Part shown: in pieces, positions 2,165 through 31,701 of the stretch
Numbering within the stretch: the first letter of the stretch is position 1
Layout of the letters: each line of letters opens with the position of its first letter
Assembly (NCBI GenBank): GCA_008690995.1
Contig: VRMN01000005.1
Coordinates: 1 to 64,000 of the forward strand
Reading direction: 5' to 3'
DNA length: 64,000 bases
From: Porphyridium purpureum
Taxonomy: Eukaryota > Rhodophyta > Bangiophyceae > Porphyridiales > Porphyridiaceae
Position numbers and translations under genes: made by a program
Notes under the pieces: generated by a model
Database searches by the model: none
Seen by the model: the letters and a program-made list of their open reading frames with translations, nothing else
What the model was told of the DNA's origin: nothing

Positions 2165-2194
2165 AGCGTAGAGCGTAGAGCGTAGAGCGTAGAT
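2165..2194. repeat. 7-bp tandem repeat (gagcgta)n
   Basis: Four near-perfect copies of gagcgta, preceded from about 2147 by related gagcg-rich units. A short simple repeat in non-coding DNA. Confidence 0.7.
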
Positions 2195-3172: not shown

Positions 3173-3281
3173 AGTCGATCGCCTTGACAGTATATGCTTG
3201 GGATACGGCGCAGGACATAGCCACAGACAGGCCGGGTGTCGCGCATGACGCACAGACACCACGGCGCGGTAACTTGCTCCG

Positions 3282-4604: not shown

Positions 4605-4710
4605 CTTCCTTCTTTGCGCTAACCCTTTCCTCCTGCCTTGCCAGCGTCTTCGATCTCGAGCACGCTAACTAGCAAGTGTGTGAGTTGGCACTCATAGGCA
4701 AGCTGGGAAA

Positions 4711-6045
4711 ATGATGTTCCGGCGGCTACAGCAGAGCTGGCGAGCAACGGCGGCATGTGCTGTCGCTGCAGCTGGCGGGTATGTTGCTGGTGGTTCTCGC
4801 AATGTCCTGGACAGTGAATCTTCGCGTCGGGTGCGCCCATTCCCAGTTTCTGTGGAAGGCACGGGAAGCGGCGCCGCCTTCTCGGCTGTGAGTGATGAAG
4901 CGCTGAGACGGGCAGAATTGAGGCATGCCGACCGGTCGATCCATGTACCTCAGATGTTGTCGCCACCGCCAGCAGTATCATCACCGCCAGTGTCGGGTGC
5001 GCCGCTGGGCAGGTATACAATAGCTGAAGCCATTGACAGAGCAGGTCCGGCCGTTGTCAACATCACGTCAGCAGCAGCAGATGAATCATTGTTCGGGCTG
5101 TTTGGCCCTCGCGTTCCTGGTGCGCTCTCATCAGGCTCTGGATTCATTATTGATGGTGTCAAGGGCACGGTGCTCACGAATGCGCACGTCGTTGTATCTG
5201 CCAAACGCAGTGGTAACCCGGTAAGTGTTTCACTGCGCGATGGACGCAGCTTCGAGGGCATCATACGTTCGGTGGATACCACTGCTGATATTGCTGTTGT
5301 AGAGCTCGTGCGCGAGCCGCCCGATGTACAAGATCCAAACTCGCCGGTACCATTACCAAGCGTTGAACTGGGAGACTCGACCAAGTTGAGAATGGGCGAA
5401 TGGGTCGTGGCGCTTGGGTCTCCCCTGACGCTTAAAAATAGTGCGTCACTCGGCATCATTTCGGCAACAGAGCGCGAAGGATACGAAATTGGATTGGTTG
5501 GCGGGGCGCATGCTTTTATCCAGACGGACGCCGCAATTAATGTCGGCAACTCGGGCGGCCCGCTTGTGGACCTGGACGGCAAGGTTGTGGGGATCAGCAC
5601 CATGAAGGCAGCGGATTCGGACGGCATTTCATTTGCTTTGCCGATCAATTACGCGAAAGAAGTGATCCAACAGCTCGAGCAGTATGGCTCGGTGCGGCGT
5701 CCTTACCTCGGCTGCAAGCTGCTCACTTTGCACCGCGTGCTTGCGGATGAGCTCGCACGCAAGAGCTTTAACTTTCCTCGCGAAATTGACAAAGAGTGGG
5801 CATCCAAGAATGCCGATGAGCTCGGTGTGCTCGTGCACGAAGTGGAGCCGAACGGTCCCATGGCAAAATCGGGCATCATGCCAGGCGACATTGTGGTGCA
5901 GGTTGGCAAGAAGAAAATCATGAACACAAGCCAGTTTCTGGCGGAGCTCGGCCACAAGGTCGAAATGGACGTCGCCATTGTTGTCATTCGCGGAAAGGAT
6001 GCGCGGCGCCTCGAGTTCACATTGCATCCCGACATACGGAAGTAG
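4711..6045 (+). CDS. HtrA/Deg-type serine protease, probably mitochondrial
   Basis: 444 residues. The N-terminus is basic, then Ala-rich (FRRLQQSWRATAACAVAAAG), fitting an organelle targeting signal and membrane anchor. The trypsin-like domain (~100-320) has the full triad: His159 in TNAHVV, Asp193 in TADIAVVEL, Ser281 in GNSGGPLVDLDG. One C-terminal PDZ domain follows (~330-440; LVHEVEPNGPMAKSGIMPGD). One PDZ and an N-terminal anchor match the HTRA2 layout, so a mitochondrial quality-control role is the best guess; plastid Deg is the alternative. Single exon, divergent from MAEA. Confidence 0.9.
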   Translation: MMFRRLQQSWRATAACAVAAAGGYVAGGSRNVLDSESSRRVRPFPVSVEGTGSGAAFSAVSDEALRRAELRHADRSIHVPQMLSPPPAVSSPPVSGAPLGRYTIAEAIDRAGPAVVNITSAAADESLFGLFGPRVPGALSSGSGFIIDGVKGTVLTNAHVVVSAKRSGNPVSVSLRDGRSFEGIIRSVDTTADIAVVELVREPPDVQDPNSPVPLPSVELGDSTKLRMGEWVVALGSPLTLKNSASLGIISATEREGYEIGLVGGAHAFIQTDAAINVGNSGGPLVDLDGKVVGISTMKAADSDGISFALPINYAKEVIQQLEQYGSVRRPYLGCKLLTLHRVLADELARKSFNFPREIDKEWASKNADELGVLVHEVEPNGPMAKSGIMPGDIVVQVGKKKIMNTSQFLAELGHKVEMDVAIVVIRGKDARRLEFTLHPDIRK

Positions 6046-15480: not shown

Positions 15481-18400
15481 ATGGGGATAGAGGAGAGTGT
15501 GATTGCGGCGAGACTGCAGAACTTCTACGCGACTGGACAAGGACATGAAGAGCTTGTGAGTTTCCTAGATCACGCCGAAGCGCTGCCGTTTGCGCGCACA
15601 GTGCTGCTGCAGTTCTGCGCACCGCGTGCGCAGTTCGCTCAGACCGACTTGTACGCATTGTACTACGCGATCACAATCGTGCATCATGTGGTCGCACAAG
15701 ATATGCTGCTGCCTTCCGCGTCGGTCTCGGCGCTTGCTCAGCAGCGCTTTGAGCTTTTGCGCGAGCTGAGCGCCGCGCAGCGCGCCGCGTTGGTTTATGC
15801 AGGCCCGCAGGTTGAGTTCGTGCAGGCCGCGCGCCGAAAATTGGCGCATACCCTGGCAAAGATCGTCCAGCGCGACATTGTTCTACGCATGTCTGCGGAC
15901 GCGGCGAATTCCACGTGTCCTTTAATGGCGACTCTGGTGCAGCAGATATCAAGTGCATTCCAAATCGGCTTCGAGCAACTGCAGGCCCAGTGCGGCGATC
16001 CGGGAAGCACTCTGTTCAGTGCGGTATGCGCGATAGAGACACTCGGTGTATTTGTCAACACGGTTTTGCAGGAACAGTCTGACGGCACGAGTTCGGAGCT
16101 GCTGCACAGTCACAGAATGTGCATTAAGACCCTTATTCAGAGCGCAGAGCAAATGCACAGTCTAGCGTTATGCATGCAGCGCGGTGCTGATTTGTGCAGC
16201 CTCCTGAGACCAGCATATTCACGCAGCGAAGATTGGTTTGCGCTGTCACGCGTGGTGTCGATTCAAAAGGAATGCATACAGGCGTGCCAGCTCATTCTAC
16301 GTACCAGCGCGAACCGACTTCCGTCTCCGCACGTCGCCGTCGAGCTTGTGCAAACACTACGTAGCGTGGCGTCACTCGACCTCGACGAAAAGGAACTCGC
16401 GCTTTCAGCGCTGGGAGCGCTGTCGAGCATGTTCAACGACGGCTCTGCGTCGCTACTTCAGCTGCTTAGGGTACATGGAGTCACATTTGAAAGTTTACTG
16501 GGCGATTCGTTAACTCATATACGTCAAACTCTGAGCGCCGCATCCTCACGGAACCGTTGGTCCGACGAGGACTACTCAGCCACACTGCTGGAGTACGTAC
16601 AATCGCTCGTCGGAAAGCACATTGTGGTGCTCACAGTTCCCGCCAGTGCGGGCCTGCTGAACGATATTCTTGGACAGCTGCTTGAAGTTACCTTTGCGTC
16701 CAAAAATTCACCGAGGCTCCTCCCGAAACTGACGCGCTTCTGGGCAGAATTTGTGAAGCGTCTTGCGGAAGGAGACAAGGTCACGGAAAGCTTGAACCAG
16801 CCGAAGGCGTTTCTCAAGGACGGATTAATTCAATTGGCCAGTCATTTGGTCGGCATGGCGACATTTGCCGGGAATGCAGATGTTCTTCAGGGCCTGGAGG
16901 AATGGGGCGACGACGACGATGACGCAGAGGATGGCGACGGTGATGGCAACGATCGCAGGTATTGCATAACCCGAGCAGATGCCTCGGCAATGGACTGTGT
17001 GCGCCAGCTACATCGCCAGTTTGTGCCTGAGCTCCGCCACGAGGATCGCTCTGCGGATGACGAGGAGCAGCACGTCTACTCTGAGCGCAAGGAGTATATT
17101 TTCATGTGCATGTCAGTAATTGGCGAGGTGTGCAGTTTGTATCCCCAGGATGCCGCGGTGCCGGTGGCAATGTTGGTCAAAGACCGTCTGCTCCACATCG
17201 ACAGCATTGAGGCGCAGGACGTCACGACGTACTTGCGACTCGCATTGAGCGTTTCGTCGTTTCTCATGGTAGACTCGCCTGCCACGCGTGAACTGCTGCA
17301 GGTCATCGTAGAACGGGCCCTTGACTTGAATTCGCTCATGTCCAAAAGTAAGTTGCAGGTTCGCGTTTTGTTCAAAACGGTCGGCGCTTTGCTCAGGCTT
17401 TTGCTTTGTTTACCTGAGAACGTTTGTCAAGACGTAGTCTTGCGCCTCGTCGCAAGCCTGCGCTGGTGCATTCTGGATTCGGGGCGTGAGGACACGATCT
17501 TACCGGCTGCGAAGCTTTTGGCCGAAATCTGTAGTAAGCTACGATTGGGCTTGTTTCGTGACCAGCCGCCCATCAGCGCCAGTGAGTGGCTCCATCGGCG
17601 CGCTTCTGTCAATGATACTTATATCCGGCTGGAAACAGGACGCTACATCACTGCCACGGCAGAGCGCGCGCTGCTGTTTCCCAGCCAAGGTGTTAAAAGT
17701 AGCCAGGCACTGCCTCCGGAGGAGTGGGAACTCCGGGCAACCCGATTCCGTGAATTTTTGTCCACGATTCTTTCTGACTTTGTAGCACAGCTCGGCGCGT
17801 TGAAGGCAAGCGAGCAATTGTCATTGGACACGAATGCGATGCTGTGCGTTGAGGAAGGTGTCACGTTGATGCACACGATGGTGCTGGTCATGTATGGAGA
17901 GCTCAATACTCCGAGGGACGCGTTGTGGTTCTGCTGCCAGGACCTGATTGGAGCTCTTGTTTCAGACGTGCTGCCCCGCATCGTCCCGGTGCGTAGCATC
18001 GAGAGTGGCAGAATGTGTGGGCTTGTCGTCAGTATGGTATCGTCGGCCGACCAGTGCTTCCGAAAGCACATGCACCATGTCACGAAACGCTGCTGCACAG
18101 TGGTCATGACCAGCTTGAGCGGCATTTTGGCGGACGGATCAAGCGGGGCCTTGAGCAGCAGTACCGGAACCGACCAGGTTTGCCTCGCCATGCTCGAGTT
18201 TATGCGCGAGGTCTTGTCGCAGGGTAGTAGCGCGGATGTGGAGTGGCTTGTGCAGGGCTGCATCACGCTTTGCTCCCGCGCACTCACTTCGATATGGTTG
18301 CCGCAAATCAGTTATTCCGTGCAGCAGCCTCAGTCTCTGTCCGCGCAGAATCAGCACCTTGCAGAAGAGCTGGCTGTCAGCAGTTGTCGCGCCATTGGGG

Positions 18401-18960
18401 AGATCCTTGTGCGGCACTGGCTCTACCTTTTTTCGTCCACACACGTTTCTGTGGAGGCACTGCAGACGGCCTCTTCCGTTGTTGATGCATCCGCACGAGT
18501 GGACGAGTTTATGCTGCTAACGTCTGGATTGCTGTACGTGCTGGAACACGCGCAGGAAGCTCCTGTTATCCGTAGCGCGTTGCAGGCATTGCAGGAGGCA
18601 AATACCACGCGCCGACTGTATAGCCGACCTGTTTTTGCCGCGCAAATGCTGCGTGTCCAGTTTGAGGTGCGCGTGCTCATGTGCATGACCAGCGAAATGC
18701 ATCACGCTCTGCGTGACGACCTGCAGATGTGCCTGTTTGACATGGTGAGCTGTGACTGGCAGGAATTCCATGCCACTGTGCTCGGCTCGTTTTTCGAGAC
18801 CCCAGCGGCCGCTTTCCTGCTTCCGCTGCAGCGTGACTTGCTGCGCTCGGTTTTCTCGAATGAAGACTCACAGCAGGGTTTTCTGCAGGCCTGCAGGATC
18901 TTCTGCAACGACTTTGCATTCTATCGTAACGTCGTCAAGCGTGCTTCGCAATTGGCGTGA
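15481..18960 (+). CDS. exportin of the importin-beta superfamily (XPO4/XPO7-like)
   Basis: 1159 residues, almost entirely predicted amphipathic helices, in the size range of exportin-4 and exportin-7 (about 1090-1150). The N-terminus (ALYYAITIVHHVV, FELLRELS) follows the exportin pattern of helical repeats leading to an importin-beta-N/Xpo1-like region. An acidic loop at ~475-490 (DDDDDAEDGDGDG) fits a cargo- or Ran-sensitive insertion. Exportins carry proteins or RNA out of the nucleus with Ran-GTP. The choice between XPO4 and XPO7 cannot be made by eye. Single exon. Confidence 0.65.
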   Translation: MGIEESVIAARLQNFYATGQGHEELVSFLDHAEALPFARTVLLQFCAPRAQFAQTDLYALYYAITIVHHVVAQDMLLPSASVSALAQQRFELLRELSAAQRAALVYAGPQVEFVQAARRKLAHTLAKIVQRDIVLRMSADAANSTCPLMATLVQQISSAFQIGFEQLQAQCGDPGSTLFSAVCAIETLGVFVNTVLQEQSDGTSSELLHSHRMCIKTLIQSAEQMHSLALCMQRGADLCSLLRPAYSRSEDWFALSRVVSIQKECIQACQLILRTSANRLPSPHVAVELVQTLRSVASLDLDEKELALSALGALSSMFNDGSASLLQLLRVHGVTFESLLGDSLTHIRQTLSAASSRNRWSDEDYSATLLEYVQSLVGKHIVVLTVPASAGLLNDILGQLLEVTFASKNSPRLLPKLTRFWAEFVKRLAEGDKVTESLNQPKAFLKDGLIQLASHLVGMATFAGNADVLQGLEEWGDDDDDAEDGDGDGNDRRYCITRADASAMDCVRQLHRQFVPELRHEDRSADDEEQHVYSERKEYIFMCMSVIGEVCSLYPQDAAVPVAMLVKDRLLHIDSIEAQDVTTYLRLALSVSSFLMVDSPATRELLQVIVERALDLNSLMSKSKLQVRVLFKTVGALLRLLLCLPENVCQDVVLRLVASLRWCILDSGREDTILPAAKLLAEICSKLRLGLFRDQPPISASEWLHRRASVNDTYIRLETGRYITATAERALLFPSQGVKSSQALPPEEWELRATRFREFLSTILSDFVAQLGALKASEQLSLDTNAMLCVEEGVTLMHTMVLVMYGELNTPRDALWFCCQDLIGALVSDVLPRIVPVRSIESGRMCGLVVSMVSSADQCFRKHMHHVTKRCCTVVMTSLSGILADGSSGALSSSTGTDQVCLAMLEFMREVLSQGSSADVEWLVQGCITLCSRALTSIWLPQISYSVQQPQSLSAQNQHLAEELAVSSCRAIGEILVRHWLYLFSSTHVSVEALQTASSVVDASARVDEFMLLTSGLLYVLEHAQEAPVIRSALQALQEANTTRRLYSRPVFAAQMLRVQFEVRVLMCMTSEMHHALRDDLQMCLFDMVSCDWQEFHATVLGSFFETPAAAFLLPLQRDLLRSVFSNEDSQQGFLQACRIFCNDFAFYRNVVKRASQLA

Positions 18961-19345: not shown

Positions 19346-19350
19346 GCAAA
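19346..19350. repeat. target-site duplication (gcaaa), left copy
   Basis: The 5 bp gcaaa immediately left of the outer element is repeated at 30217-30221 immediately right of it. Confidence 0.9.
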
Positions 19351-19652
19351 CGTGGAAAGTTGCCCGTCCCACTCGTCGATGGGCGTGCGGAAGGGCGAGT
19401 GCGAACGTACCGGGACGTCGTGACGGGGATTCAGCGGGTGTAATGCGATGTGACTCGACTAGCGTCCCGCCGGATGCCGATGTGACGTGACTCGATGTGG
19501 TCAGATTGCATCAACAAGGACCCGGCGGGCGTCTATATAGTGGGTGCGGTCGCGCAGAGATGGCAGACGGATAAGCCTAGAAGAAAAGAGAGAAGGTAAG
19601 GGAAGGGGAATAGTAAAAGGGTTCTTCGTTGATCGTTAACAGAAAACCCACG
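19351..19652 (+). repeat. copia-type element, left LTR
   Basis: 302 bp, starting CGTGG and ending CCACG (5-bp inverted termini around the usual TG...CA). It contains a TATA-like tctatatag at 19532-19540. A direct repeat of CGATGTGAC with TGACGT/TGACTC cores near 19446-19497 could bind bZIP-type factors. No difference from the right copy was seen. Confidence 0.93.
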
Positions 19653-19664
19653 TGGTATCATCGC
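19653..19664 (+). other. primer-binding site of the copia-type element
   Basis: TGGTATCATCGC directly after the left LTR. The first eight bases match the usual initiator-Met tRNA primer site. The same 12 bases follow the LTR of the nested gypsy element. Confidence 0.75.
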
Positions 19665-19712
19665 CGGTTCGGCGGGTGAGGAGCGGTAGTCTCTGGTGCG
19701 GGGCCTGTCGGG

Positions 19713-20453
19713 ATGGACGAGGAGACGGGGCCAGTTGTGAGGCCGGCGCGGCTCAGCCAGTTCGCGGGGCAGCGGAACCAGCGAGTGGTGATGAACTGGT
19801 TGTTCGAAGTGGAGACGAAGGTTCTGCCGTTCGCCAGCTCTGAGCGCGAAGGAGTCAACGTAGCCATGAGCTACTTGACGGATACTGCATTGCAGTGGTT
19901 GCGTGGCCTGCCGGTCCGTCCAGAGAATTGGGCCGGGTTTCGAACGGTGTTTATGGAACAGTTCTTGCCGGCGGACTACAAGCGTCGCGCGCGAGATGCG
20001 CTGCATGGATGGCGCCAGACGAGGGGCGTAGCGGTGTACGCGGCCGAGTTCAGGGACCTGGTCCTAGCGTGTGAGGACGTGGGTGCCGCGGAGGCGTTGG
20101 ACAAGTTCACGCGTGGACTTAAGCCCGCCATAGCGTTCGAAGTTATGAAGGAGAATCCAAGTAGCCTCGATGAGGCCTGCCGAGTTGCCCTTTGCGCGGA
20201 GGACGCATTCGTGGCGGCGCGTCGCGGTTCGCCATCATCCCAGGGTCTTGGGATCCACCATCGCTCAGGCCCGACGCGCGCTTTCGACGTGCCGTATGGA
20301 GAGAGCTCGGCACCAATGGAAATCGGGGCGCAGGCTATGGAGGTAACCTGTTACAACTGCGAGGAACGCGGGCACTTTGCGCGAGACTGCCCCAAGCCGC
20401 ACCGCGCGCGAGCGCAGGCGCAGCCGGGAAAAGGCGCCCCGCGCCGAGACTAG
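19713..20453 (+). CDS. gag of the copia-type element
   Basis: 246 residues: a helical capsid-like region and a C-terminal zinc knuckle of the CX2CX4HX4C type. The capsid region resembles the gag of the nested gypsy element (shared RRARD, AEF/AAFQD and F-RGLKP segments). It overlaps pol in another frame, as in families that use ribosomal frameshifting between gag and pol. Confidence 0.85.
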   Translation: MDEETGPVVRPARLSQFAGQRNQRVVMNWLFEVETKVLPFASSEREGVNVAMSYLTDTALQWLRGLPVRPENWAGFRTVFMEQFLPADYKRRARDALHGWRQTRGVAVYAAEFRDLVLACEDVGAAEALDKFTRGLKPAIAFEVMKENPSSLDEACRVALCAEDAFVAARRGSPSSQGLGIHHRSGPTRAFDVPYGESSAPMEIGAQAMEVTCYNCEERGHFARDCPKPHRARAQAQPGKGAPRRD

Positions 20454-23335
20454 GGCAGGTGTCGGCGCGGGAGCCGTCAGAACTTCTGACGTTGCACGTT
20501 CGCTTCTGCGGGAAACGTGCGATGGCAATCGTAGACTGTGGCGCCACACATGTCTTTGTGGATAAGGCATGGGTGCGCCATTCAGGGTTATTATCATTTT
20601 GCGAAGCGACACCGGGACTTCAGGCCGTCCTTGCCGACGGGCGCAAGACTAATGTTGTCGGGAGCCTTCTCGGTCATTTGGAGCTGAACGGCATCGGGTC
20701 ACGTCGCTGCCGTGCGATTGTATGTCCGGCACTGATGACCGACCTCGTCATCGGTATGGAGTTCCTGACGCGTACTGGGATGGTCATTGATTACGAGGAC
20801 GGGAGCATTTTCATGCGTAAGCGGGAAGATATGAACTTGAAAAGGGACAAGGAGCAGAACGGGAGCGCAGGGCGCACGAGCGGAGGAACGGCTGGGCCGG
20901 GCAGAGAGCAGAACGAGAGCGCAGGGCGCACGAGCGGAGGAACGGCTGGGCCGGGCAGAGAGCAGAACGGGAGCGCAGGGCGCACGAGCGGACGAACGGC
21001 TGGGCCGGGCAGAGAGCAGAACGGGAGCGCAGGGCACGTGGAAGCAAGCTCTGTCAATCCGCAGCCGCGAAATCAAGGACGGAGCGCGGGGCGCTCGAGC
21101 GTACATGTGGACGGGCCATGCGTGAACCGAGACACAAGCGCGGGGCGCGTGCATGAAAAGAACGTCGGAAAGTCATCAGGGCTGAGCGATGAAGAGAGCG
21201 CGGGGAGCTCCAACGCATGCTCGACAGGAGCGAACGGTTACGAGAACGGGAATATGAGCCCGGAGCGCGTAGATTGCGAAACAGATAGGCCGAACATGGG
21301 GGCGAATGTCGAGGTCCATTCGAACCAAGCATGCAAAGGCACCCCGTTGGCGAAGTCGGCTGAGTGCCGCGAAACGGAGGTACGGACGCGAGGAAGGGAC
21401 CAAGTGATGGGCAAAACGAAGGCGAGGAGCAACACGGACCCTGCGCAAGACTCGCTAGTCAGGAGTAAAATCGGGTCGCGGCATGGCGGCAGTGCGTTGA
21501 AGGAAACCGCATACCCTTCCGGAGACTGTAGCCTGATCCCAGAACCTGATTCGCCGGGGGAGGCACAAACCGGCGACATAGCGTCAAGTTCAAGCGACGA
21601 TGGAGCGCCAAATGCGATACGAGGTATTCGACGCGCAATGACATGGGTCGATCGTCTCGCCCTTGGCACCACAGTTTCAAATGTGCCCGACGGACACGCG
21701 CTCCTGCACATGCCTGCTCGCACGTCGTGCGAGGTTTGTACAAGGGCGAAGCTGAAAATGCGGCCGTCTTACCGAATTGATGTCGACGCGCACGCGCGAG
21801 CACCTGGGGTCGCTGCACGCTTTGACGAAGAAATAGGGGTGGACCTGGTCGACGCCGGCGCCAAGGTCCGTTCGCGGGAAGGATATCGATACATCCTGAC
21901 ACATGTCGACGAGCACACGGGGTGGATAGAAGTCGCGGGAGTCGTCGATAAGACTGCCCTGGCCTGCCGCGAGGCGCTTGTCGAGTGCCAAGCTGGGAGA
22001 GATTGGCCGAAACGGATGCGCACAGATTCGGGCAGCGAGTTTAGGGGCGCGTTCGCGCGCGTTCTGCGCGAGAGGAACGTTGAACATACCCTCTGCATCC
22101 CTCATAGACCGAACGGACACGCGCGACTGGAAAGACTGCACCACACGTTGAATGCCGTCATTCGTTGCCTCTTATGGCAATCGGGTTTGCACGTCGTCTG
22201 GTTTTTCAGAGCAGCCAAATTCTTCGCGTTCTGGTACAATCGGGTGCACCTGGGTAGGGACGGACTAACTCCCTTTGAGCGCAGATACGGACAGGGATGG
22301 GTCGAGAGCGGCAAGCCATGGCTGATGGCTCCATTCGGATCGCGGGTGGTCTATAAAGTGGACGACGTAGCCAACAAGTTCGCTCCTACCACGCGCGAGG
22401 GAGTGGTCGTCGGGGCTCGGGACCACCCCGCCGCCCTCGAAGTTCTCGAGACAGGGTCTGGAGCGACGACGTGGACAAGAGATTTCAGAGTATTCAAAGA
22501 CTTCACCATGCGCGTGCCGGGCGCAGAACCGCTCGCAGAAATGGAAAAGGTGATCGCGTACGATCCGGACGGGGATTTGGCAGTCGCACAGCGCGACAAC
22601 GTCGCGTCGGAAGAGACGGGAATCAAAGCGAGGGTTGAAGCAATCACGGAACGCCTGAAGGCCATCGACGAGCGGGAAAAGCAGCTAAGCCAGGAGGTCG
22701 CGGCGCGGCGGGCGGCTAAGGAGGGCAAAGAAATCAGGCGTACAAAGAAGAACGCCCGTCGCTCGGCCCGAATAGCGGCGCGCTTTCCTTCCGTGACCAT
22801 AAATGTTACCAGGGTAATGAGCAGACGAGAAGCCACCACGGATGGAAGGGCAGCTGAGGCCATTGAGAATGAGCTCGGGCAAATGCGGCGCTTCGGCGTG
22901 TGGGATCCGGAACCGGTCACTCTGAACTCCATTACCGAGGGACTTATTGTAAGGGCGCACATGGTGGTAGCCGAAAAGCACACGGAGCGTCCTGTTGAGG
23001 AGCGCAAGATCAAGGCAAGGCTCGTGGCCGGGGGGGATCGCATTACGGACATGACGGGGGTCCCAGTGTCTCTTACCGTTCCCTACGAGGCGCCGGCATC
23101 TTTAGCTGCGCTAAGGATCGTGCTGGCGTGGGCGCAGATGAACGAATTAGAAGTGGGCTTTGTTGACATCACCAGCGCCTACCTGCAGGCCGAGTGCAGC
23201 GGGGGACCGGTGTATGTAATCCTTCCCAGCGAGGCAGGCGGGAAGACGGGCACCGCCCATCATCTCCGCAAGGCAATGTACGGATTACCGAGAGCGGGAG
23301 CGGACTTCGCGCGCGAAGCTCGTAGTCGCTTGTTG
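20192..23335 (+). CDS. pol of the copia-type element, part left of the nested insertion
   Basis: Order of parts: aspartic protease (DCGAT motif near 20535) with a gypsy-like VIGMEFL segment, a linker with 18-residue tandem repeats, a zinc-binding and DDE-type integrase core (~21690-22300) and the beginning of the copia-type reverse transcriptase (~22850 onward). The remaining RT lies right of the nested element. Confidence 0.88.
20852..21035 (+). repeat. 54-bp tandem repeat inside copia pol
   Basis: Three full copies and one partial copy of an 18-codon unit beginning EQNGSAGRTSG, in frame with pol, between protease and integrase. Copies differ at only a few positions. Confidence 0.9.
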
Positions 23336-23628
23336 TGTTATCCGTTCGACCCCAGTCACCTAGAACGGTTCGGTTAATCCGAAACCGGTAAGCCGTTAAA
23401 CCGTCAGACCGTTTAACCGTTTCTAGAAGCTTCTAGAGGTTCCAGAAACTTCTAGACGCGCGCAGAAATGCCAATGGTTTGCATTGTCATTTCTCTTGGC
23501 GCCTTGCTGTCCCTAGCGGAAGTAAGGGTATAAAAAGGCGACGCGCCTGCCCGGACTAGCCGGTCAGGTCTTGCTCGGAGACAGAAGAGGTAAGAAGAAG
23601 CAGAGTAAAAGGCACAGCATTGGTAACA
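23336..23628 (+). repeat. gypsy element, left LTR
   Basis: 293 bp, TGTTA...TAACA inverted termini. The U3-like part has many AACCG/CGGTT cores (Myb-like), then heat-shock-element-like arrays, then a TATA box (tataaaaag, 23529-23537). Confidence 0.95.
23421..23457 (+). promoter_or_regulatory. heat-shock-element-like arrays in the gypsy LTR
   Basis: Alternating TTC and GAA triplets with 2-bp spacers: one array TTCnnGAAnnTTCnnGA, then a second array of the same pattern offset by one base. They lie ~72 bp upstream of the LTR TATA box. The same sequence is in the right LTR at 28589-28625. The pattern is the binding consensus of heat-shock factor. Confidence 0.6.
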
Positions 23629-23630
23629 TT

Positions 23631-23642
23631 TGGTATCATCGC
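23631..23642 (+). other. primer-binding site of the gypsy element
   Basis: TGGTATCATCGC, two bases after the left LTR; identical to the site in the outer element. Confidence 0.75.
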
Positions 23643-24200
23643 TGGTTACCTGGGGTTGCTCTAAGGTTCTCTTAGAGTTTCTCTGGGGTTGCCTGGGTGG
23701 GAGAGTCTGCGGGTAAGGGGGTTCGAGTAAGTCGATCCGGAGGGTGCGACGGGTGGAAGCGGGTCTCAGTCTTGGCTGTACGATAGGCCTAGGCCTTGAC
23801 GGCGGACTCGCTCTCTGCCTTAGCACGTATTAGTAGGCAAGAGCCGTAACGGTCAGCCTTCACTAGGATTCATCCTAGTGTCGCACGACCACCTTTGCGA
23901 AGGTAGGCGCCGAACACCTCCATATAAGATCGCATCTATAATCCCCGCCCCAGTGCAAAGGCCCGGGCCGCTCCCCATCCAGCGCAACAGAGGAGGATTG
24001 CTGTGTGCTTTGTTGTGTGTGCGTGAGAAGATTGCTGTGCGTGTGTGTGTGCGTGAGAGGACAGCTTCGTGTGTCGGTTTGTGTTCGTGAGGGCGACCGA
24101 GCCCGTTCGTGGTGCGCGCAGCTGTTGGAGAAAGTGAGCATCGGAGGCTTGCTGTTCGTGTCGTTATTGTGATCGGTGAGCGTGCTTTAGTCCAGAAAGC

Positions 24201-25007
24201 ATGGAGATTGATTCGGAGACGCTGGGACCACGTGGCCCGAAGGAGGCCCGTCTGATGAGGTTCGACGGGAAGCGTGACCTTCTGGTTGTGAAGACGTGGT
24301 TGTTCCAGGCGAGAAAGAAGATCTTGGGCCGGTTGTTGGAGAGCATCCACCCGGACGATTTGGAGAAACGTCTGCTTGCGGAGAGGCGTGCTGTGGACTT
24401 GGCTTCTGACTATTTCGAGGGAGAGGCGCTTCATTGGTGGGTTCTAAACTGCGAACGCTACCCGCAGGAGATCCCCACGACGTGGAATGATTTTGCTGCC
24501 CTCGTGAGTGCTCGGTTCACGCCGCAGGATTCGATCAGGCGTGCAAGGGACAAGTTGACGCGTCTTTCGCAGAAAGGCCCGGCCCATGCGTATGTGGCGG
24601 CTTTTCAGGACGCGGCACTTGTGATTCCGGACTTGTCGGACGCAGAAATGATGGACCGCTTTGTGAGGGGTCTGAAGCCCGAGGTCCGCTTGGAAGTTTA
24701 CAAGCGAGGAGTGAGTACGTTTGCGGAGGCTGCGCAGGTGGCGGTGGTCGTGGATGACGCCATTCATGCGACTCGCGGCGTGCGTGATTCAAGTGTGAGG
24801 ACGCCATTTTTCGGTCGCGCAGCGCAGGAAGGACCTGTCCCGATGGAGCTGGGACATGTGCAGGGTCAGAGGCGTGTTCGAAGCGAGCTCAAATGCTGGA
24901 ATTGTGGAAAGCCGGGACACATCGCCAGGAAGTGTCCCGAGGCAAGGAAGACTATCCAGCAGCTGGAGGGAGACTCGCTGGAGTCAAAAAACGAGGAGCT
25001 CGAGTAG
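24201..25007 (+). CDS. gag of the gypsy element
   Basis: 268 residues with a helical capsid domain of the Ty3/gypsy type (WNDFAALVSARF, DRFVRGLKPEVRLEV) and a C-terminal zinc knuckle CWNCGKPGHIARKC. It overlaps pol by about 115 bp in a different frame, as expected for frameshift-expressed pol. Confidence 0.92.
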   Translation: MEIDSETLGPRGPKEARLMRFDGKRDLLVVKTWLFQARKKILGRLLESIHPDDLEKRLLAERRAVDLASDYFEGEALHWWVLNCERYPQEIPTTWNDFAALVSARFTPQDSIRRARDKLTRLSQKGPAHAYVAAFQDAALVIPDLSDAEMMDRFVRGLKPEVRLEVYKRGVSTFAEAAQVAVVVDDAIHATRGVRDSSVRTPFFGRAAQEGPVPMELGHVQGQRRVRSELKCWNCGKPGHIARKCPEARKTIQQLEGDSLESKNEELE

Positions 25008-28000
25008 AGAGGTTCCTCGGACAGTCAGAGGGAAAGGAGGCTCGCAGGCGTTACGAGACCTCTAGGGGCGGCAATGAAGACCGCTGTGGTGGCCTTGGTA
25101 AGCCAAGGTCTGGCTGTCCGACACCTTGTGGGCGAAACTCGAGCGCCAATCAGCCCGTGATCAAGGAACTTGGAGGGATGGGAGCTGCCATGCTTCTTCG
25201 AGTTCGAGGAAAAGTGCACAAGTCCGACGGAGAGGCCACGTTTTTGATTGACAGTGGCGCGACGGACAACTTTATGAGCGTGGACTTTGTGCTGAAATCC
25301 GACGGCCTGAAGCAGAAGGCGTCGTGGAAGAGAGATCATGTGACCCTAGCGGATGGGTCTGTATTGGAAACAGCCGGAGAGGTCTCCAATGTCAAGTTTG
25401 AACTGAGCGATGGGTACTCAGGGGCCGCTAACTTTGCCATTTGCCGGATTGCGGGACAAGACGCAATTCTGGGCATGGAGTGGCTGAAGCGGGAGAACCC
25501 AGTGATTGATTGGCAGTCTGGCATGTTGGCCTACGGAGAGAAGAAGGCCTGGAGCATGACGCAGATGCTGGTGCCGCGGAAAGAGCTCCGTCGGCTGTTG
25601 AAGAGTCAGGAGGTAGAAGAGTGCTACCTCGGCGTGCTGAAAGGAAGGGAGGAGCCCTGTTCAGTGGAGCGCAAAGACGCTGACTCTGTGAGAAAGATGC
25701 TCAAGGATTTCGAAAATCTGTTCGAGGAGCCACGAGGGCTGCCTGAGAGCCGAACAGTGGAGCATGTGATTAGGCTGAAAGATGAGAAGCCTGTGAGAGT
25801 GGGCAGGGTCTACCGACTGAGCCCTGCGGAGTTGAAAGTCCTCCGAGAGACTTTGGATGACTTGCTGGACAAAGGATTCGTCCAGCCGAGTCAGAGCCCG
25901 TTTGGAGCACCCGTGCTGTTCGTGAAGAAGAAAGACGGCAGCATGAGGATGTGCGTCGATTATCGGGCGTTGAACGACGCAACTGTGAAGGACCGGTATC
26001 CGTTGCCGAACATGGATGAGTTGCTGGATCGACTGGGCGCAGCTCACTGTTTTTCAAAGTTGGATTTGGCATCGGGATACCACCAGTTGCGTGTTCGGGG
26101 AGAGGATGTGCCGAAGACCGCGTTCCAGACCAGGTACGGACAGTTCGAGTTCCGTGTGATGCCGTTTGGTCTTTGCAACGCGCCGGCAACTTTTCAGAGG
26201 GCCATGAACGAGCTGTTTGCAGATCTGCTGGACAAGACCGTCATTGTCTACTTGGACGATATTTTGGTCTTCACCAAGGATAGGCAGTCGCACAGCGAGG
26301 CCCTCAAGGAAGTGTTGTCGCGCTTGCAAAAGGCAGGGTATCGTTTGAAGCGCAAGAAATGCAGCTTCTTCGTTTCTGAAGTCGAATACCTGGGAAACAT
26401 TGTCGGTAACGGTTGTGTGAAGATGGATCCACGGAAGGTGGAAGCTTTGAAAGATTGGCCAGTGCCAAAGACGGTGACGGAGTTGAGATCCTTTTTGGGA
26501 ATGACAAACTGGTTTCGCAGGTTTGCCAAAGGATACTCTACCGTCGTGGCGCCGCTGACTTCGCTGTTGCAGAACGCAAAGTCGAAGAAGCAGCTGATCG
26601 AACTGGGAGATGAAGGCAAGTCGGCCTTCAAGAAGATTGTGGGGATGTTGACGGAAGCGCCGGTGTTGGCTTTGCCAGACCCTGAAAAGCCATTCGAGGT
26701 GTACACAGACCGCTCCGAAGTCGCGGTGGGGGGATGGCTGGCACAGGAAGGCAGACCGGTCGCGTTTACGTCAAGGAAGCTGCTGGACCGAGAGACCAGG
26801 TACAGCAGCTATGAAGGTGAGCTCATGGCCGTCATTCACTGTCTGCGAGAGTTTCGACCTTATCTGTACGGAGCACAGTTTGTGCTTCATACAGATCATG
26901 AGGCGTTGAAACATTTGATGACGCAGAAGGAGCTGAATGGCCGGCAAGCACGGTGGCTGGACTTTTTAGCCGAGTTTGACATCACGATCGACTATGTGAA
27001 GGGAAAGTCGAACGTGGTAGCCGATGCTTTGTCGAGGAAGCCAGAGTTACATGCGCTAGAGTACCAAGTTCGGTGTGATGAATTTGGTGCGGGTTTCCAG
27101 GCATTCGTGGGTTCGTACTCGAGTGACCCAGACTTTGGTACTTTGATGGGTGACTTACCGACCCACCAGGGTTTTCGAACCGAAGCTGGGCTCTTGTACT
27201 TGAGGAATCGCGTTTGCGTGCCGAGGAAGTTCAGAGAGCGTGTCATGCAGCTCCACCACGATATCCCGACAGCAGGACACCGTGGAGCCGACACGACGTA
27301 TGCATCTTTGATCACTCGCTTCTACTGGCCAAAGATGAAGCGAGACGTGAGCCGTTTTGTGAAGACTTGTCACGCATGCCAAGTGACAAAGTCAGAGAAT
27401 CGGTCGTTTGGAAAGCTGAAGCCCTTGTCGATCCCAGAAGGACCTTGGGTCGACATTTCGATGGACTTTGTGACGGAGCTGCCTCGGAGCGAAGGCAGCT
27501 GTGATGCAATTATGACTGTGGTGGATCGCTATTCGAAGATTGCGCTGTTCATCCCGACGCGCAAGGACTTGACAGCAAAGCGTTGTGCTGACTTGTTCGT
27601 GAAGCACGTCGTGAGCCGTTTCGGATACCCCAAGTCAATTGTATCGGACCGAGATCCGCTGTTTACGTCCACGTTTTGGCAGCAGTTGAGCAAGCGGGTG
27701 GGCATGAAGTTGGCTATGTCTACCGCCAACCACCCGCAGACAGATGGCCAAACTGAGCGAGTGAACCGCGTGATTCGGGAAATGCTCAAGTTGATGGCGA
27801 CGAATAGTGGCTGGGTGCGAGACTTGCCGTTGTACGAGTTTGCGTACAACTCTGCACCAAGCAGTGCCACTGGATTCGCGCCGTTCAAAGTGGTATATGG
27901 AAGGGATCCTTGGTTTCCACCGAGCGAAGGGTGGAGGCCTGCGCGCGACGGACAGACAAAGGACATGGCGGAGCACTGGTTTCGCCTGTGCAAAGTCCAT

Positions 28001-28384
28001 GAAGAAGTCCGCGACAATTTGATCGAAGCCCAGGGGAGAATGCAGAAGTTCTTCGATCGACGCAAGGATGCCCGGGAGTTTCAAGTTGGTGATCAAGTGT
28101 TGATCACGGCGCCGCAATTGCGGCCGAACAAGAGTGATTTGGCGGCACCAAAGTTTCTTGGTCCGGTGCCTGTCATTGAGAAGGTAAGCTCGCATGCTTA
28201 CCGAGTGATTTTGCCCGAGGGTGTGGCTTGTCATGATGTTTTTCCGATCCAACATCTGAAGCCATACTATGGACGCGAAGACTACATGGCAGGGGAAAAT
28301 GATGAAGAAGTACCCGACGACCTGCCAACGTCCGATTCTGAGCCAGACTTGTTGAAAATTATCGAAGAGTCTGACTCTGAATGA
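24893..28384 (+). CDS. pol of the gypsy element
   Basis: 1163 residues: aspartic protease (LIDSGAT), reverse transcriptase (CVDYRALN, YLDDILVF), RNase H (~26700-27050), then integrase with an H2C2 zinc finger and a DDE core (SMDFVTELPRSEG, SDRDPLFTS, ANHPQTDGQTERVNR) and a C-terminal GPVPVIEKVSSHAYRV segment. This order is that of the gypsy group. Confidence 0.95.
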   Translation: MLELWKAGTHRQEVSRGKEDYPAAGGRLAGVKKRGARVERFLGQSEGKEARRRYETSRGGNEDRCGGLGKPRSGCPTPCGRNSSANQPVIKELGGMGAAMLLRVRGKVHKSDGEATFLIDSGATDNFMSVDFVLKSDGLKQKASWKRDHVTLADGSVLETAGEVSNVKFELSDGYSGAANFAICRIAGQDAILGMEWLKRENPVIDWQSGMLAYGEKKAWSMTQMLVPRKELRRLLKSQEVEECYLGVLKGREEPCSVERKDADSVRKMLKDFENLFEEPRGLPESRTVEHVIRLKDEKPVRVGRVYRLSPAELKVLRETLDDLLDKGFVQPSQSPFGAPVLFVKKKDGSMRMCVDYRALNDATVKDRYPLPNMDELLDRLGAAHCFSKLDLASGYHQLRVRGEDVPKTAFQTRYGQFEFRVMPFGLCNAPATFQRAMNELFADLLDKTVIVYLDDILVFTKDRQSHSEALKEVLSRLQKAGYRLKRKKCSFFVSEVEYLGNIVGNGCVKMDPRKVEALKDWPVPKTVTELRSFLGMTNWFRRFAKGYSTVVAPLTSLLQNAKSKKQLIELGDEGKSAFKKIVGMLTEAPVLALPDPEKPFEVYTDRSEVAVGGWLAQEGRPVAFTSRKLLDRETRYSSYEGELMAVIHCLREFRPYLYGAQFVLHTDHEALKHLMTQKELNGRQARWLDFLAEFDITIDYVKGKSNVVADALSRKPELHALEYQVRCDEFGAGFQAFVGSYSSDPDFGTLMGDLPTHQGFRTEAGLLYLRNRVCVPRKFRERVMQLHHDIPTAGHRGADTTYASLITRFYWPKMKRDVSRFVKTCHACQVTKSENRSFGKLKPLSIPEGPWVDISMDFVTELPRSEGSCDAIMTVVDRYSKIALFIPTRKDLTAKRCADLFVKHVVSRFGYPKSIVSDRDPLFTSTFWQQLSKRVGMKLAMSTANHPQTDGQTERVNRVIREMLKLMATNSGWVRDLPLYEFAYNSAPSSATGFAPFKVVYGRDPWFPPSEGWRPARDGQTKDMAEHWFRLCKVHEEVRDNLIEAQGRMQKFFDRRKDAREFQVGDQVLITAPQLRPNKSDLAAPKFLGPVPVIEKVSSHAYRVILPEGVACHDVFPIQHLKPYYGREDYMAGENDEEVPDDLPTSDSEPDLLKIIEESDSE

Positions 28385-28488
28385 CTTGGGAATTGTGAGA
28401 AGTTTGCTAGGCAGAGGTTTTCTCCCGGAGCGCGGGTTCCTCGAGCCAAGAATGCAACTTAGTTTGAAGTCTCGCCGAGACGTCGAGC

Positions 28489-28503
28489 CAAGAGGGGGGG
28501 AGA
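28489..28503 (+). other. polypurine tract of the gypsy element
   Basis: Purine run (aagaggggggg-agat) directly before the right LTR, the expected plus-strand primer. Confidence 0.8.
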
Positions 28504-28796
28504 TGTTATCCGTTCGACCCCAGTCACCTAGAACGGTTCGGTTAATCCGAAACCGGTAAGCCGTTAAACCGGTAGACCGTTTAACCGTTTCTAGAAGCTT
28601 CTAGAGGTTCCAGAAACTTCTAGACGCGCGCAGAAATGCCAATGGTTTGCATTGTCATTTCTCTTGGCGCCTTGCTGTCCCTAGCGGAAGTAAGGGTATA
28701 AAAAGGCGACGCGCCTGCCCGGACTAGCCGGTCAGGTCTTGCTCGGAGACAGAAGAGGTAAGAAGAAGCAGAGTAAAAGGCACAGCATTGGTAACA
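28504..28796 (+). repeat. gypsy element, right LTR
   Basis: 293 bp, differing from the left copy at two positions by eye. Followed by the tgttg target-site duplication. Confidence 0.95.
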
Positions 28797-28801
28797 TGTT
28801 G

Positions 28802-30007
28802 CGTCTCGGATGGGTGGAGGTCACAGCAGGAGTGTATATCCGTAGAAGCCTCGAGGGGAACGCGGCAGGACTCGTCTTGGTAATGTACGTTGACGACGTG
28901 GTCTTAGCGGGGCGGAAAGACGAGGCACGGAATGCCATGAGTGAGTTATATCAAGAATTCGTGATCGACGAGCAACCGCAGTGGCTCGGCGAGAGCCCGG
29001 TCCTTCACCTTGGCATGCGGATTTCCAGAACGAACGGAAGGGTAAAGATTGATGGTACGGACTACGCAAAGACCATTATAGATGAGTACGAGCGCGACTC
29101 GACTGTGAGGACGAGGGGCACGCGCGATGCGGCAACCCCCATGGTATTTCCAGAGGCGGCGCTCTACGACGAAGCGGAAGTCAGTACGACTTGCCGGCAA
29201 CACGTCGGACGCCTAATGTGGCTCGCACGCACGGTAAAGCCCGAAATAGCATACTCGGTCGCATATGTCTCGCGCTTTGTGGACAAGTGGAGCAAGGCAG
29301 CATCGGCGATTCTCGACCGAATCGTGCGGTACGTGCACGGGAGCCAGGATAGTGTCTTGGAATACGGCAGCGCGGGGCGCCTGGGAGATCAGGTACGAAT
29401 AGTCGCCTTTTCAGATAGCGACCATGCAGGCTGTCCCGCGACGCGGCGGTCAACTTCCGGCGGTTGCGTATACTTCTCAAACGGAGAAGAGAACTACTTG
29501 GTAGATTGGTTTTCGAAAGCACAACGGGCCTCGGTATTATCCACCGCGGAGGCGGAACTCACCGCCCTTGGCAGGATCATGCGAACTACGATTCCTAACG
29601 CCGAAGTTGTAATCCGAGGGCTCGTTGGAACGCGCGTACCGCTCGCTGTGTGTTGCGACAGCGAAGCAGCGGTGAAGGCCGTTCGACGAGGATACTCCGC
29701 CAAGATGGCAAGTCTCGGGAAGACACACGGCGTCACTGTAGCCACCCTCTCGGACGCTTTTGATGGAGAAGACTCGAACCTCGTGTCTGTCCCCGGAATA
29801 TCGAATTGCGCAGACATCTTCACGAAGCCGATGGAACGAGTGGCATTTACACGTGCTATTGCCAACCTTAGGAAGGGCGCTTCCAACGATCGAGAGCGAG
29901 ACGTGCACGGGGCGCGTGGAAAGTTGCCCGTCCCACTCGTCGATGGGCGTGCGGAAGGGCGAGTGCGAACGTACCGGGACGTCGTGACGGGGATTCAGCG
30001 GGTGTAA
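28802..30007 (+). CDS. pol of the copia-type element, part right of the nested insertion
   Basis: Carries the RT catalytic segment (YVDDVVLAG) and the copia-type RNase H (SDSDHAGCPATRRSTSGG, STAEAELTAL), ending with the family's ADIFTKPM-type tail. It runs slightly into the right LTR. Confidence 0.88.
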   Translation, partial: RLGWVEVTAGVYIRRSLEGNAAGLVLVMYVDDVVLAGRKDEARNAMSELYQEFVIDEQPQWLGESPVLHLGMRISRTNGRVKIDGTDYAKTIIDEYERDSTVRTRGTRDAATPMVFPEAALYDEAEVSTTCRQHVGRLMWLARTVKPEIAYSVAYVSRFVDKWSKAASAILDRIVRYVHGSQDSVLEYGSAGRLGDQVRIVAFSDSDHAGCPATRRSTSGGCVYFSNGEENYLVDWFSKAQRASVLSTAEAELTALGRIMRTTIPNAEVVIRGLVGTRVPLAVCCDSEAAVKAVRRGYSAKMASLGKTHGVTVATLSDAFDGEDSNLVSVPGISNCADIFTKPMERVAFTRAIANLRKGASNDRERDVHGARGKLPVPLVDGRAEGRVRTYRDVVTGIQRV

Positions 30008-30216
30008 TGCGATGTGACTCGACTAGCGTCCCGCCGGATGCCGATGTGACGTGACTCGATGTGGTCAGATTGCATCAACAAGGACCCGGCGGGCGTCTAT
30101 ATAGTGGGTGCGGTCGCGCAGAGATGGCAGACGGATAAGCCTAGAAGAAAAGAGAGAAGGTAAGGGAAGGGGAATAGTAAAAGGGTTCTTCGTTGATCGT
30201 TAACAGAAAACCCACG
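29915..30216 (+). repeat. copia-type element, right LTR
   Basis: 302 bp; by eye identical to 19351-19652. The purine tract in front of it is short and weak (cacggggcg). Confidence 0.93.
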
Positions 30217-30221
30217 GCAAA
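30217..30221. repeat. target-site duplication (gcaaa), right copy
   Basis: Matches 19346-19350, confirming the outer element's boundaries. Confidence 0.9.
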
Positions 30222-30477: not shown

Positions 30478-31701
30478 ATGCGAGGTGGTCAGGAGAGGGT
30501 GGCCCGCGTGGTGCGATCCGCGATGATCAGTGGGCTGCGTGGGCGTGGGTATGCGGCCGCTGCGGCCGCCGGCGGCGCGCTGAAGCAGACCGTGCTGCAC
30601 GATAAGCACATGGCGATCGGCGGGAAGATGGTCGAGTTCGCCGGGTACGATATGCCCGTGCAGTATCCAGACGGAATTATGGAGTCGCACTTGTGGGTGC
30701 GCGCAAACGCAGGCCTGTTCGATGTGTCGCATATGGGACAGGTCCGCCTGCATGGCAAGGATCGCGTCGCGTTTTTGGAAAAGCTCGTCGTGGCAGACGT
30801 CGCTGGCATGGCGCCGCATACGGGCGGCCTGTCTGTTTTGACCAATGCAAACGGAGGAATCATCGACGATACAATCATTACGAATCTCGGCGACGTGACC
30901 GGTATGGTGATCAATGCCGGCTGCAAGGATAAGGACCTGGCTCACATGCGCGAGCACTTGGAAGCCGCGAAAAAGTCTGGCATGGATGTAGATCTCGAAG
31001 TAATCGAAGATCACGAGCTGCTCGCGCTGCAGGGACCCAAGGCCATGGAGGTGTTGATCAAGCACTGCACCGGAATCGATTTTGTGCACATGCCTTTCAT
31101 GATGGCGTCGTACGGCACCATCGCAGGCGCTAAGTGCCTCGTGACTCGCTGTGGATACACCGGAGAGGACGGATTCGAAATCTCAATGCCAGCAGCAAAG
31201 ACCTTGGAGATTTTCGAAATGCTCACCGCAGACGCGGCGGTGCGTCCGGTGGGGCTTGGTGCTCGTGACAGTTTGCGTATGGAGGCCGGGCTGTGTCTTT
31301 ACGGAAATGACATTGACGAGACCACCACTCCGGTGGAGGCTGCGCTCACTTGGACAATTGGTAAGCGCAGGAAGGAGCAGGGAGGCTTTTTGGGCGACAA
31401 AGTTATTCTCAAACAGCTCGCAGAGGGCGTGAGCAAGAGGAGGTGTGGCTTTTTGGTGGAAAAGGGCGCGCCTCCGCGCGGGCATGAAACGATTCTGTCT
31501 GAAGATGGGCAAGAGGTCGGAGTGGTGACGTCGGGCGGCTTCGCACCCTCGGTGGGTAAGCCGATTGGAATGGGCTACGTCAACAAGCCCCACAACAAGA
31601 GCGGCACAAAGCTTCAGGTAGTTGTCAGGAAAAAGGCCAACCCCATTTTGATTAGCAAGACGCCGTTCGTGCCGAGTGGGTACTACAAGGTTCCTGAATG
31701 A
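30478..31701 (+). CDS. GCVT: aminomethyltransferase, T protein of the glycine cleavage system (mitochondrial)
   Basis: 407 residues. An N-terminal presequence rich in Arg, Gly and Ala (~1-33) is followed by the GCV_T fold: LHDKHMAIGGKMVEFAGYDMPVQY, LFDVSHMGQ, LTNANGGIIDDTIIT, LGARDSLRMEAGLCLYGND and VTSGGFAPSVGKPIGMGYV. It moves the aminomethyl carbon of glycine from the H protein to tetrahydrofolate, releasing ammonia, and is central to photorespiratory and one-carbon metabolism. The ATG lies ~260 bp right of the retroelement; spacing to the right LTR may bring LTR promoter activity close to this gene. Single exon. Confidence 0.95.
   Translation: MRGGQERVARVVRSAMISGLRGRGYAAAAAAGGALKQTVLHDKHMAIGGKMVEFAGYDMPVQYPDGIMESHLWVRANAGLFDVSHMGQVRLHGKDRVAFLEKLVVADVAGMAPHTGGLSVLTNANGGIIDDTIITNLGDVTGMVINAGCKDKDLAHMREHLEAAKKSGMDVDLEVIEDHELLALQGPKAMEVLIKHCTGIDFVHMPFMMASYGTIAGAKCLVTRCGYTGEDGFEISMPAAKTLEIFEMLTADAAVRPVGLGARDSLRMEAGLCLYGNDIDETTTPVEAALTWTIGKRRKEQGGFLGDKVILKQLAEGVSKRRCGFLVEKGAPPRGHETILSEDGQEVGVVTSGGFAPSVGKPIGMGYVNKPHNKSGTKLQVVVRKKANPILISKTPFVPSGYYKVPE

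Follow-up and report, generated by a model that had tools for sequence, protein, structure and literature searches.

Introduction

The placing of copia and gypsy long terminal repeat (LTR) retrotransposons in different virus families rests largely on their reverse transcriptase (RT), and the gag is usually assumed to follow the RT. Gmr1-like elements carry a gypsy-type gag and protease (PR). Copia and gypsy are treated as separate families in excerpts of PMC12440569. Excerpts of PMC2774666 describe LTR elements as evolving modularly, with the LLS and ILG protease motifs separating copia from the rest (very few exceptions) and with the integrase (IN) following the PR in all known copia and in the Gmr-1 gypsy elements. 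The GalEa-like copia elements CoPorcru1 and CoPorcru2 were reported from Porphyridium cruentum (PMC3587641, excerpts). A literature search of partial texts, with most subscription journals and Repbase outside its scope, returned no description of a copia element whose gag and protease are of gypsy type.

The window analyzed here is a stretch of 64,000 nucleotides of Porphyridium purpureum (contig VRMN01000005.1, positions 1 to 64,000, forward strand), and searches were extended to the genome of this alga (22.16 Mb, 46 contigs). The window contains an LTR retrotransposon, hereafter the outer element, whose RT is interrupted by a nested Ty3/gypsy element. The gag and PR of the outer element are of gypsy type, its RT and RNase H are of copia type, and the same combination recurs in other elements of the genome, here termed mosaics as distinct from classical copias. 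It is very probable that a copia lineage acquired a Ty3/gypsy 5' module (gag, a -1 overlap of gag and pol, PR, and perhaps the primer-binding site, PBS) and then diversified.

Structure of the outer element

The outer element spans positions 19351-30216 on the + strand. Its 302-bp LTRs are identical, which points to a recent insertion; they have the ends CGTGG...CCACG and are flanked by the target-site duplication (TSD) GCAAA. The features of the element, in window coordinates, are:

19351..19652, +, 5' LTR of the outer element, recognized as an exact 302-bp repeat; TSD GCAAA at 19346-19350
19653..19664, +, PBS-like sequence TGGTATCATCGC of the outer element, immediately 3' of the 5' LTR
19713..20453, +, gag with Ty3/gypsy-type capsid (PF03732) and CCHC knuckle
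20426..20432, +, candidate -1 slippery heptamer G_GGA_AAA, 5' of the gag stop
20495..20773, +, aspartic protease of gypsy/retroviral type (DCGAT ... VIGMEFL), from PF13650, PF13975 and the PR tree
20852..21035, +, tandem repeat in the PR-IN linker, 54-bp unit, 3.4 copies
21690..22400, +, integrase (zinc-binding N-terminus and rve core), limits approximate and zinc-binding residues judged by eye
22976..23335, +, 5' part of the interrupted copia RT (RVT_2)
23336..28796, +, nested Ty3/gypsy element, inside the outer RT
28797..29914, +, 3' part of the copia RT and RNase H region
29915..30216, +, 3' LTR of the outer element, an exact repeat of the 5' LTR; TSD GCAAA at 30217-30221

The gag reading frame (19713-20453) and the pol frame (20192-23335) lie where a first-pass annotation of the window had placed them. 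In the outer pol (P0001) the PR occupies aa 102-194, rve aa 558-640, and RVT_2 starts from aa 929, which places the IN between PR and RT. The two halves of the broken pol were searched separately, and trees and profiles used the sibling element L020, which is uninterrupted (pol open reading frame, ORF, of 1455 aa; LTRs 100% identical; TSD GAAAC). The nested element has LTRs at 23336-23628 and 28504-28796 that differ at 2 of 293 positions, the TSD TGTTG, a gag (24201-25007) and a pol with RVT_1 (24893-28384).

The LTR ends of the mosaics are non-canonical (C...G instead of TG...CA), with clear 5-bp TSDs. These are GCAAA in the window element, CTTTT in L015, GAAAC in L020 and GTTTT in L034.

Gag and protease

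The nested gypsy gag and the outer gag match end-to-end (E 1e-31, 33% identity over 265 alignment columns) with the segments RRARD, A-F-D and RGLKP in register, so the alignment across the capsid that the first-pass annotation had drawn by eye holds. The zinc knuckle it had noted is likewise present in the outer gag, which matches zf-CCHC (E 1.8e-8) in addition to PF03732 (Retrotrans_gag, E 7e-14). The match to Ty3_capsid (E 3.1e-6, 27.2 bits) is slightly below the cut-off of 29.1. The copia gag family PF14223 gave no match to the outer element up to E 1, and the sole credible match of the outer gag to the classical copia polyprotein L012 is confined to the zinc knuckle (16 residues, E 0.009). 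The capsid is of the PF03732/Ty3 type found in Ty3/gypsy, and a copia gag was not found. A profile made only from mosaic gags (7 rows) matched the Ty3 capsid chain 6r22 at E 1.7e-6 across profile positions 23-249, a span that takes in the knuckle, and, upstream of the knuckle, the dArc2 capsid 6taq (positions 69-174, E 0.0079); the Copia virus-like particle chain 8vvw matched it at the knuckle only (222-250). In the gag-only tree the outer gag groups with the gypsy gags at 90/90, on an unstarred branch.

The outer PR matches Asp_protease_2 (PF13650, E 1.4e-8) and gag-asp_proteas (PF13975, E 3.4e-8), and the copia family Pol_BBD is absent from its matches up to E 1. Its motif is VIG, which is of the ILG type of gypsy retropepsins and not the LLS/Pol_BBD type of copia; the end of the protease, VIGMEFL...VIDYEDG, was correctly read in the first-pass annotation as gypsy-like rather than copia-like. 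In the PR tree (25 rows) the 10 classical rows stand on one side (100/99), and 10 mosaic, 4 gypsy and 1 unassigned row are interleaved on the opposite side. A clade uniting mosaic and classical PR against gypsy was rejected at p 0.034. The branch of the outer row is long, and the tree has a long-branch warning.

The change of affinity falls at about 20.77-21.69 kb. The tandem repeat (20852-21035) lies inside this stretch, as had been proposed, but the repeats themselves probably do not mark the junction, because the mosaic L015 family has a much shorter PR-IN distance (PR match at aa 42-93, rve from aa 213).

Integrase, reverse transcriptase and RNase H

The copia-type IN, RT and RNase H in copia order described in the first-pass annotation stand as to RT, RNase H and order, while the IN is of copia type by position and profile. 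The outer IN matches PF00665 (rve) at 21863-22111 (E 6.8e-9). In the profile comparison the IN scores 111 to copia and 61 to gypsy, and the IN-only tree splits 16 copia-linked rows from 3 gypsy rows (97/97). BLASTP of the IN alone is uninformative (37 bits to gypsy, 36 bits to copia). The two pieces of the outer RT match RVT_2 with E 3.4e-6 (27.3 bits, 5' piece) and E 7.6e-4 (19.6 bits, 3' piece); both are below the Pfam cut-off of 31.6 because the RT is split by the nested element, and the sibling L020 scores 61.3 bits. RVT_1 gave no match on the outer RT. The outer stretch that includes the RT is 33% identical to the classical copia L012 (E 3e-25). The RNase H was assigned from the match of the L020 RT-RNase H profile to classical copias, with no separate Pfam match. 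The outer element has both the RVT_2-type RT and the IN between PR and RT of Ty1/copia. The Ty3/gypsy arrangement of an RVT_1 RT followed by RNase H and IN was not found, as the IN lies upstream and the gypsy probability of the RT is 0.24%.

Profiles and trees were run separately for the modules, as had been suggested at first pass; the gypsy side consisted of gypsies from this genome, Pfam families and solved structures. Few gypsy rows entered each set (3 for gag, from 2 families; 4 for PR; 3 for IN; 3 for RT). With hhalign the L020 modules gave probabilities to gypsy and to classical copia of 99.8% and 41.1% for gag, 97.6% and 4.8% for PR, 94.8% and 98.4% for IN, and 0.24% and 100% for RT-RNase H. 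The other mosaics, pooled, gave 100% and 96.6% for gag (scores 317 and 72), 99.1% and 75% for PR, 97.8% and 99.85% for IN, and 0.26% and 100% for RT-RNase H. Gag and PR go with Ty3/gypsy and RT with RNase H goes with Ty1/copia; the IN is assigned to copia by position and profile, and the approximately unbiased (AU) test of its tree does not reject a grouping with gypsy.

Distribution in the genome

The survey covered 150 of 155 RVT_2 matches (223 candidates) and 150 of 180 PF03732 candidates; the 150 RVT_2 rows do not include families with an RT as strongly diverged as that of the L028 type. A PF03732 gag lies 1.8-3.4 kb upstream on the same strand in 42 of the 150 listed RVT_2 loci. At the same distance it was found downstream on the same strand in 3 of the 150 and on the opposite strand in none. 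A PF14223 gag accompanies 25 of the 150, and 83 of the 150 have neither gag. The last class includes mosaic copies whose gag is outside the scored list (e.g. L034), divergent families with an unrecognized gag (L030, L035, L036, L039) and the weakly copia-like L031 (PF14223, E 1.7e-4).

Among the loci fetched, gypsy-type gag and PR occur together with RVT_2 in L015, L016/L033/L034, L017/L018, L019, L020, L021, L022, L023 and L028. The PR signal is weak in L017, L021 and L023 (local profile 16-25 bits) and marginal in L018 (12.9 bits, E 0.019). In L028 a single ORF of 1536 aa encodes both gag and PR and also matches RVT_2 weakly (E 0.0023); the Porphyridium relatives of L028, P0032 and P0033, named 'Copia protein', have PF03732 and a retropepsin. 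An LTR pair is present in 11 of the 12 mosaic loci tested, and none was found in L028; the repeats of L016 and L033 run to the end of the stretch, those of L023 are 87% identical, and several pairs have blurred limits. The mosaics are several divergent families and not a peculiarity of the nested locus.

Given the nesting at this locus and the large number of RVT_1 matches in the genome (150), gypsy gag-PR debris might have come to lie beside a copia pol through the nested insertion or through misassembly. The family of the outer element has 12 listed gag matches at 54.8/54.4 bits, this copy included, and RVT_2 is exactly 2850 bp away in 9 of them. In the sibling and in other families both modules lie within one LTR pair, and L028 carries them in one ORF. 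On this constant spacing, the shared LTR pairs and the one-ORF L028 a nested-insertion artefact was rejected, and its probability is considered negligible.

The first-pass annotation had proposed module exchange between the families of the two elements seen in the window. Exchange is upheld at the level of superfamilies and not between these two copies. The mosaic build is common to several diverged families in the tree of IN, RT and RNase H, so it is far older than the nested insertion with its 2 differences in 293 LTR positions, and the donor of the gypsy module is not the nested copy.

A protein search with pol region 495-1440 returned 30 proteins: P0002, a copy from Porphyridium, and 29 further proteins with 22-36% identity, of which 27 have RVT_2 by Pfam and 2 have none. 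The gag alone gave no protein at E ≤ 0.01 among 850 candidates, and the gag-PR region of L028 gave only P0032 and P0033, both from Porphyridium. These searches bear on the idea that a ready-made mosaic entered Porphyridium by horizontal transfer, the exchange having taken place in another host. Nothing direct speaks for it, although the outer gag has no close counterpart among those gypsy gags of the genome with which it was compared (33-38% identity). The sister classical copias reside in the same genome, and no mosaic protein from another organism was found in searches that need shared 5-residue words and so do not exclude one. Entry from another host is considered improbable. A search of viral contigs gave 60 pattern matches, none of which was confirmed.

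Several fetched loci showed further features. Two PF03732 gags, L027:261-2480 and L024:410-1585, lie in fetched sequence where no RT was recognized; L027 groups with the L028 mosaics (gag 99/98, gag-PR 100/99) and is therefore probably another mosaic. L019:1632-5282 has a Myb-like domain between IN and RT (aa 595-644; PF00249, E 6.1e-5, slightly below cut-off), which might possibly serve as a targeting module. In L030, L031, L035, L036 and L039 gag and pol are in the same frame with one stop codon between them (e.g. L031:833-1942 and 1946-5698), an arrangement that suggests stop-codon readthrough for Gag-Pol.

Phylogenetic placement and number of exchanges

The RT tree omitted near-duplicate or fragmentary rows (L032, L033, L034, L038, L040, L046, L048, P0002, P0004, P0006, P0016, P0022, P0031) and matches shorter than 190 residues, and the rows of later trees were hand-picked. 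L037, fetched without a recognized gag, was placed with the classical rows on its 96-97% identity to L011, an element with PF14223 and Pol_BBD; P0003 was counted as classical because its PR is Pol_BBD. In the tree of RT and RNase H (529 columns, 24 rows), 10 mosaics and 4 classical Porphyridium copias (L012, L013, L014, L037) form one clade (100/100), and a single clade of the 9 classical rows was rejected (p 1.3e-5). With divergent copias as outgroup the mosaics thus lie among classical copias, which favors replacement of the 5' module over its retention.

Retention would mean that a PF03732-like gag and an ILG-type PR are primitive in copia and were kept with no exchange. A distant relationship is assumed among the gags and among the retropepsins of LTR elements, and in the profile comparison gypsy gags match classical copia gags at 91.7%, and pooled mosaic gags match them at 96.6%. 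The position of the mosaics would then require the classical module to have been gained repeatedly and independently, and the outer gag is 37% identical to a gypsy gag over 216 columns and 22% to copia over 138. Retention is accordingly judged very unlikely, and the existence of an exchange between copia and gypsy is well supported.

Some results weigh against the acquisition of a gypsy 5' module by a copia lineage. In the AU test of the IN-only tree, mosaic and gypsy IN as one clade was not rejected (p 0.265). The outer gag as a single sequence matched, among solved structures, no Ty3 capsid, its matches being at the knuckle only. The pooled mosaic gags still reach 96.6% with classical copia gags (score 72, against 317 for gypsy), and the pooled mosaic PR reaches 75% with the classical set (gypsy 99.1%). 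The PBS-like sequence, treated below, is shared with a classical copia.

The number of exchanges was also considered. The gag-PR unit may have been acquired on two or more occasions; alternatively, the L028 group may have taken gag, PR and IN from another mosaic while keeping a different RT and RNase H. The tree of RT and RNase H sets L028/P0033 beside K_L012/K_L014 (82/82, inside 89/98) and away from the other mosaics, and the RT-only tree likewise sets the L028 group beside classical rows; in the latter 3 label changes are needed, 2 of them forced by starred branches. The outer gag is nearest to gypsy gags, which also speaks for more than one capture. On the other side, the 8 mosaic rows of the tree of IN, RT and RNase H (797 columns, 21 rows) form one clade (100/100), and the AU test does not reject a single mosaic clade for RT only (p 0.175) or for RT and RNase H (p 0.285). 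For RT only it does not reject a clade of the 4 classical rows (p 0.486) or of the mosaics minus the L028 group (p 0.378) either. Repeated exchange is judged less likely than not. It is comparably doubtful that the gag-PR half is an exchangeable cassette across copia and gypsy that moved more than once in Porphyridium and founded a hybrid superlineage; if so, this superlineage would now be a sizeable share of the copia elements of the genome.

Frameshift overlap and primer-binding site

All 13 gag/pol overlaps examined in mosaic and gypsy elements, including repeated copies of some families, are in -1 relation. At least one heptamer of the form X_XXY_YYZ is present in 9 of the 13, such as GGGAAAA at 20426 in the outer and AAAAAAC at 24986 in the nested element; the count has no chance control, and some heptamers are expected because the overlaps are long. 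Of the classical copias fetched, 4 have an LTR pair (L009, L012-L014), and each of these encodes gag and pol in a single ORF.

The sequence TGGTATCATCGC also occurs 2 bases 3' of the 5' LTR of the nested gypsy element (window 23631). Within 1 mismatch it was found in L015-L022, L025 (before a mosaic-type gag), L033, L034, the gypsy L008 and the classical L013, and a scan at the same tolerance did not find it in L009-L012, L014, L023, L024, L026-L028 or 9 divergent loci. An additional 1-mismatch match at window 61536 is outside both elements. The sequence GGTTATGAGCC is found 3' of the 5' LTR in L009, L012 and L014. This distribution fits a transferred block that starts upstream of gag, but as the classical L013 has TGGTATCATCGC too, it is not proof of a transferred leader. 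A tRNA acceptor-stem pattern was matched at 3 places, on both strands at each because the pattern is palindromic; these look like a repeat tract and 2 copies of an unrelated stretch and were rejected as tRNAs. ARAGORN found no tRNA gene in the window.

Proposed mechanism and significance

Template switching, its direction, the number of events, frameshifting and activity are what we infer from the sequence comparisons, and the steps would be as follows. Copia and gypsy RNAs would be packaged in one particle, and one template switch during minus-strand synthesis, from the copia RNA at IN to the gypsy RNA at PR, would move gag and its own protease as a unit, possibly with leader and PBS. Because gag would move with its own protease, enzyme and substrate would stay matched. 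In the resulting element gag would assemble a Ty3-like shell, a -1 shift by a fraction of the ribosomes at G_GGA_AAA would yield Gag-Pol for processing by the gypsy-type PR, and the copia RT/RNase H and IN would carry out the copying of the RNA and its insertion, which duplicates 5 bp of the target.

With a copia lineage carrying an acquired gypsy module, shell and protease follow gypsy, the replication enzymes follow copia, and the hybrid has diversified. The shell-making half of LTR retrotransposons can, on this reading, be exchanged between families. Testable points are whether the need for a protease to suit the gag it cuts is what keeps gag and PR together, whether a foreign gag packages copia RNA, and how far classification by RT only misstates particle biology.

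Flanking sequence

The outer element sits between two large ORFs. By eye, the ORF at 15481-18960 resembles an exportin-type protein and that at 30478-31701 a glycine-cleavage aminomethyltransferase.

Comparison with known systems

The outer element resembles Ty1/copia, represented by the classical L009-L014, in its RVT_2 RT, the order PR-IN-RT-RNase H, the copia-like IN and RNase H, and the 5-bp TSD. It is unlike Ty1/copia in having a gag of PF03732/Ty3-capsid type instead of PF14223, a PR of ILG type instead of LLS/Pol_BBD, a -1 overlap of gag and pol instead of the single ORF of L009 and L012-L014, and LTR ends of CG...CG instead of TG...CA. With Ty3/gypsy, represented by the nested element, it shares full-length gag homology, the ILG-type retropepsin, the -1 overlap and the 12-nt PBS-like sequence, and it differs in the copia type of the RT and in the IN upstream of the RT. 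CoPorcru1 and CoPorcru2 are copia elements of the same algal genus, and the excerpts of PMC3587641 mention no gypsy gag in copia. Gmr1-like gypsy elements, in the excerpts of PMC2774666, also show a copia-like gene order outside classical copia. There Gmr-1 is called Ty3/Gypsy, and the outer element lacks the gypsy RT of the Gmr1-like group; because its RT is itself copia, its gene order is not that of a rearranged gypsy pol.

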